29,124 bases of DNA from a virus. Positions within the stretch are counted from its first letter, which is position 1. Each line of letters begins with the position of its first letter. Shown here piece by piece: positions 11,417-15,517 of the stretch. A model generated the notes under the pieces. The model searched no databases and was not told where the DNA came from. It saw nothing but the letters and a program-made list of their open reading frames with translations. The DNA is taken from positions 1-29,124 of IMG/VR virus record IMGVR_UViG_3300046516_001926. The stretch is one strand, 5' to 3'. The position numbers and the translations under genes are program-made.

Positions 11417-11586
11417 GGTCGCAGTCCCATCGTCGAACGGATGAACGCCGGCATCTTCATCCCGACCTTCGCGGCCCGCAGGAGGACGTCCTCGAACTCC
11501 TCCACGGTCACGGCGGCGAGCAGCCTCATCGTCCGACCCTTCCTCGTCTTGGGGCCTGGACGCCCCGGCTTCTGATCTTCACTCAT
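11413..11586 (-). CDS. Ribbon-helix-helix small protein (57 aa)
   Basis: A short leftward gene from ATG 11586 to TGA 11413. A basic, Pro/Gly/Lys-rich arm (SEDQKPGRPGPKTRKGR) precedes a typical RHH unit: strand TMRLLAAVT (19-27), helix VEEFEDVLLRAAKVG (28-42) and helix MPAFIRSTMG (45-54), with the usual 'G..MPAFIR' turn. RHH proteins dimerise through the strand and bind DNA; CopG, ParG and MobC-type proteins are relatives. No Shine-Dalgarno is present. Instead TAGTTATCC lies two bases before the ATG, the same as at the other RHH gene on the opposite strand. It probably controls this region or takes part in replication or partition. Confidence 0.72.
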   Translation of the reverse strand: MSEDQKPGRPGPKTRKGRTMRLLAAVTVEEFEDVLLRAAKVGMKMPAFIRSTMGLRP

Positions 11587-11594
11587 GTGGATAA
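11586..11594 (-). promoter_or_regulatory. Perfect DnaA box (TTATCCACA)
   Basis: On the minus strand the bases read TTATCCACA, the strong consensus DnaA box, ending at the A of the RHH gene's ATG. It lies about 20 bases from an AT-rich inverted repeat and directly downstream of the replicase operon. It may be a replication origin element, or it may be chance overlap with a promoter and start codon. A related but imperfect box (TTATCCGTA) lies at 13501-13509. Confidence 0.4.
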
Positions 11595-11611: not shown

Positions 11612-11636
11612 TTTTTAGATCACTGTGTGAAAAAAT
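11612..11636. repeat. AT-rich imperfect inverted repeat
   Basis: TTTTT-aga-TCAC-tgt-GTGA-AAAAAA, where TCAC and GTGA are exact complements and the outer T and A runs can pair around a small bulge. It lies in the 58-base gap between the 216-residue gene and the RHH gene, in about 32 bases that are roughly 78% A+T, exceptional for this genome. Candidate operator, terminator or DNA-unwinding element. Confidence 0.45.
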
Positions 11637-11644
11637 AATTCATG

Positions 11645-12295
11645 TCAGTTGAGGCTGGGGTCGTCAGGGACCATCCCCGGCCCCGCTGAGCTCGAGGAGC
11701 CGCCGGACGACGGGGTCTGATTGATCCAGCAGGAGTCCCGGAGGAAATGCACCCGGTCGCGGACGGTGAGGTAGACCTTGGAGCCGGCCTTGGCCCGGAA
11801 GACCACCGGTATGTGTCCCTCCCTGGTCGGGATCGCGAAGGCCTCCGACAGCTCCCCATCCCTCTTGACGAAGGCCACCGGCTCCAGCATGGAGACGTGT
11901 CCCTCCTCCAGGACCGCCCCCCACCGCTCCCCGCCCGGGATGTCCGGCTCCCTGTTCAGGGGGAGGTTGGCGTCCGTCGTGACGTATGCCAGCGTCGTCC
12001 GCTCCCGACGTGACAGCCCCGGGATGTTCGTGATCACACACCTCGCGATGATCGCCAGGTCCCCCGTCACGGTGACCAAGGCGACGGCCGTCGTCCTGCC
12101 GGACGTCCCGGTGTAGCGGGTCCACTCCGTCGGGACCCCCGTGCACCTGAGCCTCGGCAGGATCCCGATCAGCTCCCGGAGGAGTACCTGTGACCCCGGA
12201 CACTCCCCCGTGACCGGTGTCCACTGCGACCATCGTGGTCCCGACGGACGTAGGCGACCGTCCGCCAGCGTGATCCTCTCCGCGTATACCTTCAT
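11645..12295 (-). CDS. Hypothetical protein (216 aa) nested in the replicase reading frame
   Basis: ATG at 12295 (MKVYAERITLADGR), with AAAGG about nine bases upstream. Codon use is typical of this phage, with G/C third positions and a balanced amino-acid mix. The fold looks beta-rich (AVALVTVTGDLAIIARCVIT; VVFRAKAGSKVYLTVRDRV), ending in a Ser/Gly-rich linker and DDPSLN. No catalytic motif is recognised. A nucleic-acid-binding beta-barrel with a flexible acidic tail is imaginable but unproven. The whole gene lies inside the open frame of the upstream replicase, shifted by +1. The stop is TGA at 11645. Confidence 0.75.
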   Translation of the reverse strand: MKVYAERITLADGRLRPSGPRWSQWTPVTGECPGSQVLLRELIGILPRLRCTGVPTEWTRYTGTSGRTTAVALVTVTGDLAIIARCVITNIPGLSRRERTTLAYVTTDANLPLNREPDIPGGERWGAVLEEGHVSMLEPVAFVKRDGELSEAFAIPTREGHIPVVFRAKAGSKVYLTVRDRVHFLRDSCWINQTPSSGGSSSSAGPGMVPDDPSLN

Positions 12296-13442
12296 TCCGA
12301 TTGGCCTTTCTCCTCTGGGTCCTCTTCGCGCATGCCGACGTGGCATACCTCTTCACCCGTCCGCGTCCGCCGACCTGGTCCACCTGGACCCCACAGCCAC
12401 AGGCACAGTGGTAGGTCTCGAACTTCGCCGTGCACCTGTTATGCTCCGAGAGTCCCCCCGCCTCGGCGGGGTCCCATCCGGTGGCATACCTCTCGACGTT
12501 CCTCACCTGGCGGTCGATGTCGGAGTCGGGCCACGGCGGCATGCACCTCGGATTATAGCACCGCTTGATAAGGTCGCCGAGGAGCCCCAGCCGGCCTGAG
12601 GCATGGAGCACCCGACCGAGGTTCATCATCGTGTTGAAGAGCCGGGCATTCCCACCACGTCCCGAGACCGCGGGGGGACGACGGGACAGCCAGGACTCGA
12701 TCTCAGCGACGGTCTCCTCCTGTCCTGGTTTCCGTATACCATAGCGGGTGTGTGTTTCTCGTAGAGAGACGGAGTTGGGGACGGTTGATCCCGTGTCCTG
12801 GGATGTGCCCGTGTGTTTTGAAGGACTTACCTCACTCACACCCTCCTGTCCTCTTTTCCGTATACCAGCGGGCGGCTCTCTGCACACGGGGGAGACGTAG
12901 TTGAGGACGACGGCCGGCACGCCGGCCGTCAGGTCCGACCAGAGGACCCTACCGGAGAGAGGGTTCCCTCTCTTCCGTCGTGCCTTGAGGAAGTCCACGG
13001 CGTCGCAGACCGCCCGGTCGCCACCGAAGACCCCGCACCAGTGGAGGTGGGTGGCCCGATGCATGGGCTCCGTGGTCATCGGCCTCTCCGGGACGATGAC
13101 GAGGGTGTAGTTCCCCAGCCGCCGGCCGTTCAGGAGGAACCCCCGGAGCCGGTGCTCCCCGATGAGGGAGAGGACGCGGTCGAGGTCGATCGGTGGACCG
13201 TCCTTCGGGGCGTCGAGGTCCACCACGATCAGGGAGGACCCGGCGAACAGGGCCTTCCGCCTCTTGACCCTACCGTCGGCGTCGGGACCCCAGCTGATGT
13301 GGCTCCAGCGTCGGGCCCCGGCGAGCTTCACCAGGGAGGAGAGGGGGACCCTCTCCGTACCACATGGGGAGAACCCCCTGATGAGGGATATCGGGAACAT
13401 CTGCTCCCCCTCTGCTCCCTGCTTGGTGTCGATGACCGGCAT
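11664..13442 (-). CDS. Plasmid-type replicase: AEP primase-like domain, PriCT-like domain and zinc-binding end
   Basis: Frame from ATG 13442. Residues 70-78 (SLIVVDLDA) give the hhhDhD metal site of archaeo-eukaryotic primases (Asp75, Asp77). Residues about 105-168, ending in GNPLSGRVLW, follow the RepA/Replicase family layout ('NPL...W'). About 262-322 (GGNARLFNTMMNLGRVLH ... MPPWPDSDIDRQVRNVERYA) match a primase C-terminal (PriCT) helical domain. CACGC (346-350) and C371 within a basic end resemble a zinc ribbon. It probably starts DNA replication. Real-looking protein ends near residue 383, but the frame stays open for about 210 more codons across the next gene, so the true C-terminus is uncertain (see findings). 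A linker (about 190-245) holds a duplicated GIRK-R/P-GQE motif. Confidence 0.68.
   Translation of the reverse strand: MPVIDTKQGAEGEQMFPISLIRGFSPCGTERVPLSSLVKLAGARRWSHISWGPDADGRVKRRKALFAGSSLIVVDLDAPKDGPPIDLDRVLSLIGEHRLRGFLLNGRRLGNYTLVIVPERPMTTEPMHRATHLHWCGVFGGDRAVCDAVDFLKARRKRGNPLSGRVLWSDLTAGVPAVVLNYVSPVCREPPAGIRKRGQEGVSEVSPSKHTGTSQDTGSTVPNSVSLRETHTRYGIRKPGQEETVAEIESWLSRRPPAVSGRGGNARLFNTMMNLGRVLHASGRLGLLGDLIKRCYNPRCMPPWPDSDIDRQVRNVERYATGWDPAEAGGLSEHNRCTAKFETYHCACGCGVQVDQVGGRGRVKRYATSACAKRTQRRKANRNEGIRGEDHAGGRSPTSVGTTMVAVDTGHGGVSGVTGTPPGADRDPAEAQVHGGPDGVDPLHRDVRQDDGRRLGHRDGGPGDHREVCDHEHPGAVTSGADDAGIRHDGRQPPPEQGAGHPGRGAVGGGPGGGTRLHAGAGGLRQEGWGAVGGLRDPDQGGTHTGGLPGQGRLQGLPHRPRPGAFPPGLLLDQSDPVVRRLLELSGAGDGP
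12716..12741. repeat. Direct repeat, copy 1 (26 bp)
   Basis: Matches 12842-12867 at 24 of 26 bases; the shared core is TTTCCGTATACCA, which contains the palindrome GTATAC. The spacing is 126 bases, an exact multiple of three. It lies inside the replicase gene and encodes part of the repeated GIRK-x-GQE motif. It may be an iteron-like binding site or only a duplicated peptide. Confidence 0.6.
12842..12867. repeat. Direct repeat, copy 2 (26 bp)
   Basis: Second copy of the repeat at 12716-12741, differing at two adjacent bases. The two copies flank a stretch noticeably poorer in GC than the rest of the gene, with TG-rich runs, which is the linker between the AEP-like and PriCT-like domains. Confidence 0.6.
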
Positions 13443-13508
13443 GTCCTGATTAGTTAGGCACTCACATACACATCTGGTTAAAAAGACATCGGGTGCATAG
13501 TTATCCGT
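13443..13508. promoter_or_regulatory. Divergent control region between replicase and RHH genes
   Basis: Sixty-six bases, AT-rich for this genome, between the leftward replicase start (13442) and the rightward RHH start (13509). Rightward, TAGTTATCC (13498-13506) ends two bases before the ATG, without a Shine-Dalgarno; TGGTTA 17 bases before TAGTTA is a weak -35 candidate. Leftward, TAACTAATC then AGGAC precede the ATG. It is the likely transcription switch of the window: everything left of it reads leftward, and the early cassette reads rightward. Confidence 0.5.
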
Positions 13509-13676
13509 ATGAAGAAGAGGAACAGCGGATATACGGTAGGCGGCAAGCCCGCCCGGTGGGCGATCACGGTGACGGCGGACGAACAGTTACAGCTCCGACG
13601 GAAGGCGAGGCTCCTCGGGATCTCAGTGGCCCGGCTGATCAGGCAGCGGCTGGGGTTCGAGGCCAGTGTCAAGTGA
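13509..13676 (+). CDS. Ribbon-helix-helix small protein (55 aa)
   Basis: Rightward from ATG 13509 to TGA 13676. A basic arm (MKKRNSGYTVGGKPAR) precedes strand WAITVT (17-22), helix ADEQLQLRRKARLLG (23-37) and helix SVARLIRQRLG (39-49), a classic RHH DNA-binding fold. It faces the leftward replicase across a 66-base divergent control region, which is the usual place for a copy-number or transcription repressor. The upstream TAGTTATCC at two bases before the ATG is identical to that of the other RHH gene. Its TGA overlaps the GTG of the next gene. Confidence 0.72.
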   Translation: MKKRNSGYTVGGKPARWAITVTADEQLQLRRKARLLGISVARLIRQRLGFEASVK

Positions 13677-14305
13677 GGACAGCCAGGTCGAATGAGATGA
13701 AGAGGAGGGACGTCCTTGAGGAGCTGTCGAGACCCGGTTCGGAGCTGCTCTCTGAGCGGGAGATCGCCAGGCGGGTCGGGGTGTCCCATGCCATGGTATC
13801 GAGGCTTCGAGCGCATACATCGAGCGGGGTACAATCGCTCTATGTGATCATGCCGGTGGTCGGTGATTCCATCAAGGTCGGGATGTCCATGGATGCCTCT
13901 GATAGGCTCCGACAGCATCAATTGAATTCGCCGGTCCGCCTGACGCTCGTCTGTCACCTGGATGTCGTCGGGTTCAACCATGGACAGATGCGACGTGTTG
14001 AGAAGAGGGTACATGCGATGCTTGAGGGACATCACCTCTGGGGAGAGTGGTTCCGTGACTGCCCGGACTCACGGGCTGCCCTGGACAGGTACCTCGGCCT
14101 GGTCTCAGATGACTTTGCCGGACATCCATCCGTCTCGGTCACCTGGACGAATGCAGCCGACCACTGGTCCATCCCCTCATCTGAGACGAGGCCGGTCACT
14201 CCCGTGACCCATCCACCGATCCCCAACGGGGGTCACATCTCAGAGGAATCCGGTCCCCCTGCCACCGACTCCGATGGCCTCGAGTACGGCCGGGACGTCC
14301 GGTAG
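13673..14305 (+). CDS. HTH + GIY-YIG (T5orf172-type) fusion protein
   Basis: 210 residues from GTG 13673, chosen because it overlaps the RHH stop (GTGA); ATG 13697 is an alternative. Residues 27-47 (SEREIARRVGVSHAMVSRLRA) form a helix-turn-helix. Residues 55-141 look like a T5orf172/MUG113-type GIY-YIG domain: LYVI (56-59) for GIY, IKVGMS (67-72) for YIG, then RLRQHQ with Arg79, the catalytic-type Glu110 (RRVEKRVH) and HLWGEWF (121-127). The C-terminal ~65 residues are Pro/Thr/Ser-rich and disordered. It is likely a sequence-specific nicking or homing-like nuclease, or a regulator that keeps the nuclease fold. The 3' end overlaps the convergent HTH gene by 73 bases. Confidence 0.78.
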   Translation: MRTARSNEMKRRDVLEELSRPGSELLSEREIARRVGVSHAMVSRLRAHTSSGVQSLYVIMPVVGDSIKVGMSMDASDRLRQHQLNSPVRLTLVCHLDVVGFNHGQMRRVEKRVHAMLEGHHLWGEWFRDCPDSRAALDRYLGLVSDDFAGHPSVSVTWTNAADHWSIPSSETRPVTPVTHPPIPNGGHISEESGPPATDSDGLEYGRDVR

Positions 14306-14715: not shown

Positions 14716-15042
14716 ATGAAGCTCACCATCGGAGACCGGACGGTACCCCTCGCCACCGATCATCTCTTACATCCCACCCTCTCGGCCCTCAGCGGGTCCA
14801 CCGTGGAGGTGACGGGGGTCAAGGCGGACGGAAAGACCGGGTACGTCGAGCGGAGGTTGGAGAACGTCTCATATAAGCGAGTGTCTGGTGATGTCTTTGT
14901 GATTGGTTTTGACCCCCAGGCCAATGGGGTCAGACAGTTCCCGCTCACTGGGATTTCACTGATGAGAGTCACATACCCGATCACCCAAGAGATATCCTCG
15001 GATGAGCTGAGGGAGATAAATGCCGCCGTCTCCCTCCATTAG
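14716..15042 (+). CDS. Small beta-rich protein, possibly WYL-like (108 aa)
   Basis: ATG 14716 with GGAG nine bases upstream. The protein is a run of short strands: LTIGDRTVPL; TVEVTGVKADGKTGYVERRLENVSY; DVFVIGFDPQANGVRQFPL; ISLMRVTYPI. The order 'G.....R.......F.IGFDP...GVR.F.L..I..MRV' is reminiscent of WYL domains, which sense ligands in regulators, but no HTH is attached and the WYL triad is not visible. The role is unknown. GC is lower than in the virion genes. It overlaps the endonuclease VII gene start by 23 bases. Confidence 0.55.
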   Translation: MKLTIGDRTVPLATDHLLHPTLSALSGSTVEVTGVKADGKTGYVERRLENVSYKRVSGDVFVIGFDPQANGVRQFPLTGISLMRVTYPITQEISSDELREINAAVSLH

Positions 15043-15517
15043 AAACAAGAGGATGGACACGATATGCACTGACGTTCGCTCATTGAGGAGCGTCCTACGA
15101 CATCAGATGCGTCTACGTCCAAAGATGTTTGGACGGTTGCTGGTTGTCAGTGGCGGACGGGTCTATTCCAGGATCGCTTGTGATTCCTGCGGGCAGGACT
15201 ACGTGGTGAACAGGTGTGGGAAGACGAGGTTTTGCTCTGAGTGTCTTGGCAATCCTACCAGTGAGTCTGAGAGAGGACCTCGTCTGCACCGTCTCATGCG
15301 ATATGGCATGACGCACAGGGAATATCTGAGAATGCTGGAATCACAGGAGGGCAGGTGCAGGCTCTGTCCAGAAAAGGCCGTGTTTGTCGATCATTGCCAT
15401 GAGAGGAATGTCGTCAGGGGCCTGTTATGTCCGGCATGTAATACCGCACTCGGACGTATAGACAAGGTTCCCGGATGGACTGACCGTGCCCTGGAGTACG
15501 TGGAGTCTTTCCGATGA
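15020..15517 (+). CDS. Recombination endonuclease VII-like (HNH) with extra N-terminal zinc ribbon
   Basis: 165 residues from ATG 15020, with GAGGGAG close upstream. The C-terminal ~70 residues match endonuclease VII: HREYLRMLESQEGRCRLC (Cys113, Cys116), VDHCH (Asp124, His125, His127), and RGLLCPACNTALG (Cys137, Cys140, Asn141). This family resolves branched DNA before packaging. The N-terminal part has a second set, Cys54-x2-Cys57 and Cys72-x2-Cys75 (plus Cys66), a probable extra zinc ribbon absent from the T4 enzyme. Codon use includes many A/T-ending codons, unlike the virion genes, suggesting acquisition. It is coupled by an ATGA to the next gene. Confidence 0.85.
   Translation: MPPSPSIRNKRMDTICTDVRSLRSVLRHQMRLRPKMFGRLLVVSGGRVYSRIACDSCGQDYVVNRCGKTRFCSECLGNPTSESERGPRLHRLMRYGMTHREYLRMLESQEGRCRLCPEKAVFVDHCHERNVVRGLLCPACNTALGRIDKVPGWTDRALEYVESFR

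Follow-up and report, generated by a model that had tools for sequence, protein, structure and literature searches.

A phage replicase frame that stays open through the next gene: a probable missing stop where two genes meet closely, with a shadow frame left open by chance

Introduction

When the frame of a phage replicase gene stays open across the gene downstream of it, is one long protein made, or has the gene lost its stop? The question arises in a single virus record of 29,124 bases (the window, by which we mean that whole stretch of DNA), which carries a tailed-phage terminase and a P22-like portal on its minus strand. The ORF list places a replicase ORF of 592 codons on the same strand (13442..11664), with zero internal stops and a normal TGA at its end. 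This ORF overlaps by 632 nt a second minus-strand ORF, in the +1 frame, that begins at ATG 12295 and ends at 11645, and the overlap is far longer than is usual in this genome, where genes overlap by 1 or 4 nt. A TGA at 12294-12292 in the third (-1) frame shares the tetranucleotide ATGA with ATG 12295, and the nearest upstream stops in the stop map are at 12441 in the -1 frame and at 12355 in the +1 frame. The ORF and stop maps thus confirm the layout given in the original prediction for this locus (a 592-codon frame open across the next gene, with an ATG at 12295 and a TGA at 12292-12294), which had offered an indel, a programmed -1 frameshift and a true dual-coding protein as explanations.

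Results

Coding signal changes frame at the start of the next gene

The third-position GC content (GC3) of the replicase frame is above 0.8 across most of its length to about position 12300, with a dip over a linker at about 12721-12890, and beyond that point there is a clean switch to the +1 frame. Codon scores, calculated from codon frequencies taken from the phage's other genes, place the best single change-point between frames at 12295, that is, at the next gene's ATG, and positions from 12304 to 12185 score within 3 nats of it. The replicase therefore codes in its own frame to about 12300 (382 codons, 12295..13442 on the minus strand) and the next gene codes from ATG 12295. The continuation of the replicase frame beyond the junction (209 codons, 11664..12293, minus strand) scores -99 nats, against +31 for the 216-codon gene that it crosses. 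Per codon the tail has a log-odds of -0.467, which falls inside the span of -0.38 to -0.89 that leave-one-out scoring gave for the corresponding shadow frame in each of the other genes. The 216-codon gene itself (11645..12295, minus strand; a 216-aa product of unassigned function) has ordinary codon use, with a GC3 of 0.889 and a log-odds of +0.152 per codon, and shows no trace of double constraint; codon scores gave no sign that both frames of the overlap code. The tail thus looks like a meaningless shadow of a real neighbour gene and not a second protein. These measurements bear out two expectations in the original prediction, namely that the replicase frame resembles a shadow frame past about residue 383 and that an ordinary gene begins at ATG 12295.

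A frame-path model of the whole window gave a similar picture. The replicase is the only gene in which coding signal ends hundreds of bases before the stop, apart from gene 1441-2616, whose end shows the next largest shortfall, 270 bases. Elsewhere in the window the model showed no clear frame break. The assembly as a whole thus does not look prone to errors, which counts against the missing-stop reading preferred below.

The length of the open continuation is not above chance

We made synonymous shuffles that keep the protein of the 216-codon gene and either permute or resample its codons. Of the permuted sequences 23%, and of the resampled ones 26%, keep the replicase frame open over 205 codons or more. 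Elsewhere in the window, genes contain runs of 385-399 open codons in this relative frame, and hypothetical loss of the stop would extend four of the window's other genes by at least 200 codons (228, 237, 401 and 1105). Since the shuffles and these extensions show how readily such frames are open by chance, it is no surprise that a replicase with no stop at its end should gain a tail of some 200 codons. The run length is not above chance, composition alone explains the openness, and to describe the locus as a hidden 200-codon overlap, as had been done, is to overstate it. Long open frames are well known in GC-rich genomes (PMC3454372), and under neutrality higher GC is tied to longer phase-1 overlaps (PMC3887535; PMC2542354).

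The replicase is a predicted Prim-Pol-like primase with a PriCT-like domain

Judged by its sequence, the replicase is a putative divergent Prim-Pol-like primase, with a Prim-Pol-like N-terminal region, a linker, a PriCT-like domain and a zinc-ribbon-like end. The PriCT-like domain is seen in an alignment and in tblastn matches that carry the motif NPRC-x-PPW (E values of about 1e-9 to 1e-3 among the candidates), and is shared with Prim-Pol primases encoded by phages and by planctomycete and other genomes. A profile of the relatives, in which this protein is itself one of the rows, matches 12432-13394 at 5e-39, and the relatives' profile matches ORF904 of plasmid pRN1 at 4e-12. Direct comparison of the replicase with Pfam gave no match, PF08708 (PriCT-1) included. 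Two aspartates, D75 and D77, which would form the D-x-D motif of an AEP catalytic domain, are aligned in more than 90% of relatives; the N-terminus has no Pfam match, and the structure model has low confidence over much of it.

A single-sequence AlphaFold model was unusable (pLDDT 36.7). An alignment-based model is good only around PriCT (pLDDT above 90 at residues 250-319), and a Foldseek search with it returned only weak polymerase-domain matches, with LigD polymerase at E 0.23. The model places a zinc-ribbon-like segment with a C-terminal helix after the PriCT-like domain, and a segment of this kind is usually found at the end of a protein. We infer that the functional replicase ends near residue 383, after the zinc-ribbon-like helix. 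At its other end the protein probably starts at the second ATG of the ORF, 13400 (13398-13400, minus strand), where the Shine-Dalgarno energy is -11.1 as against +0.7 at ATG 13442.

The junction between the two genes

ATG 12295 has a Shine-Dalgarno energy of -8.8, a value matched by 3.3% of background ATGs. ATG 12346 was also considered as the start of the 216-codon gene, and was rejected on its weaker Shine-Dalgarno and poor codon score. The other well-supported junctions in the window have gaps or overlaps of 1 or 4 nt, and the two longer overlaps listed there, of 46 and 230 nt, concern ORFs that are small or have poor support. At seven other starts the start codon is followed by an A, and at five of these (4566, 7840, 10536, 11054 and 11416) the TGA is the stop of the upstream gene, which makes them true 4-nt overlaps. 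The ATGA at 12295-12292 on the minus strand, a candidate remnant of such a junction, thus modestly favours an original replicase stop in the -1 frame. The argument from ATGA, which formed part of the original prediction, gains some weight from these counts; a three-segment path that includes a shift to the -1 TGA is better than the simple path by 0.9 nats, which is neutral. If the junction is of the ATGA type, the stop map requires a net frame change within 12294..12440 (minus strand; the preceding -1 stop is at 12441), probably in the last 20 or so bases of that interval. A substitution that removed an in-frame stop is another possible route to the loss.

Relatives of the replicase

Among viral contigs, phages and plasmids we found no homologue of either the replicase or the 216-aa product that covers the junction, and in viral contigs none of the zinc-ribbon segment that does so. 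The zinc-ribbon-like end was not found in any relative, and a homologous stop near residue 383 could for that reason not be shown; none of the relatives is close enough to cover the junction. A search led by the terminase turned up phages whose portal and terminase are about 25% identical to those here. Seven of these phages were checked: a Prim-Pol relative is encoded in one, and the replicase has a match in none. Pfam, PHROGs, NCBIfam and phage genomes contained no convincing match to the 216-aa product. A helicase fused behind the primase was considered and rejected, since no helicase match came from the tail or from the 216-aa product.

Candidate origin features and neighbouring genes

The hexamer GTATAC has three copies in the window, all in or near the replicase gene (12842-12866, 12716-12740 and 12279-12290, minus strand). 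Two of them lie within a 25-nt direct repeat, GGTATACGGAAANNAGGACAGGAGG, whose copies are 126 nt apart in the low-coding replicase linker, and the third, a shorter repeat copy (12279-12290), begins just after ATG 12295. By analogy with lambda O, these repeats could bind the replicase or form an origin within its gene. Two DnaA-box-like sites, TTATCCACA and TTTTTCACA (11586-11594 and 11626-11634, minus strand), are the only matches in the window, where 0.08 are expected; they lie in a short AT-rich gap downstream of the 216-codon gene and form a candidate replication origin. Together, the GTATAC repeat set and the DnaA-box-like sites may mark an origin of replication.

Two plus-strand genes, 13493-14305 and 15020-15517, stand between two minus-strand blocks. 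They encode a MUG113/T5orf172 (GIY-YIG-like) protein and a recombination endonuclease VII-like protein, and are possibly homing or mobile nucleases.

Discussion

The explanation that we consider likely is that a Prim-Pol/PriCT-type replicase gene lacks its own stop at a tight junction, and that its frame runs on passively through the next gene. The original stop would have disappeared through a small change close to the junction, of which an indel, now hiding an ATGA-type 4-nt overlap, is the most likely kind and a substitution a less likely one; an indel or lost stop is also the best supported of the options first proposed for this locus. Such a change could be either an error in the single virus contig or a real mutation in the virus. 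If the mutation is real, ribosomes would add a passive tail of at most 209 residues that is probably without function.

An alternative that we regard as unlikely is that both ORFs belong to a single gene for a replicase of about 600 residues, split by a small indel in this sequence or by +1 recoding, with the 216-codon frame as its C-terminal part. In nearly all of the relatives found, the ORF continues past PriCT with another region of several hundred residues, and the +1 frame here is open from 12355, both as would be expected of a single gene. However, a strong Shine-Dalgarno of its own serves the 216-codon ORF, whose ATG coincides with the change-point, the 216-aa product lacks matches, to helicases as to other proteins, and the zinc-ribbon-like helix resembles the end of a protein.

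It is very unlikely that the phage makes a genuine 592-residue replicase with a functional C-terminal stretch of 209 residues nested with the 216-codon gene, in the manner of phiX174 A/B though in a tailed-phage-like virus. If true, a functional 209-codon tail would be an unusually large nested overlap for a double-stranded DNA phage. The frame is literally open as sequenced, up to a normal TGA; against this, the tail scores at the level of non-coding shadow and the gene it crosses has ordinary codon use, with no sign of double constraint. In addition, among relatives too distant to cover the junction, no homologue extends into the tail, which has no homologue in phages and no match in Pfam, PHROGs or NCBIfam, and the long overlap is missing from relatives: of 77 related primase ORFs that have a stop, none reaches more than 17 nt into the following ORF. 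The dual-coding protein first proposed thus finds no support here.

A programmed -1 frameshift during translation of the replicase mRNA, which would end at TGA 12294 or, if it began at GGGGGGA 12459, at TAA 12441, is likewise unsupported and extremely improbable. In its favour, that GGGGGGA is an in-frame X-XXY-YYZ heptamer, the single one in the replicase. It was rejected as a frameshift site, such heptamers being common in the genome (38 in 7732 in-frame positions); a slip there would stop at 12441, not 12294, and remove the zinc-ribbon end, and 12440-12294, the interval in which a -1 slip reaches TGA 12294, contains no in-frame slippery heptamer. An Rfam search gave no match.

With a missing stop as the preferred reading, the replicase overlap is ordinary: the stop expected at a compact junction is missing, and an accidental open shadow frame follows. 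In GC-rich phages, one lost stop can give overlaps of hundreds of codons that seem deliberate. At such loci a gene caller may report the 592-residue replicase and drop the real 216-codon gene, or the reverse.

The replicase resembles the Prim-Pol (PF09250)/PriCT-1 (PF08708) primase-helicases of phages and mobile elements, and ORF904 of pRN1, in having the conserved PriCT-like core with NPRC-x-PPW. It differs from these primase-helicases in that no helicase is fused behind PriCT, and from the Prim-Pol/PriCT relatives found in that it alone has the zinc-ribbon-like end. The overlap has its closest parallel in long phase-1 same-strand overlaps formed by upstream stop loss; in simulations, loss of the stop of gene 1 leads to extension to the next in-frame stop within gene 2 and so to long overlaps of this phase (PMC3887535; PMC2542354). 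Although the replicase case is possibly a sequence error and not an evolved overlap, it is like those overlaps in both respects: the upstream frame enters the next gene and closes at the first in-frame stop there, with the downstream gene one nucleotide out of frame (PMC3887535; PMC2542354).
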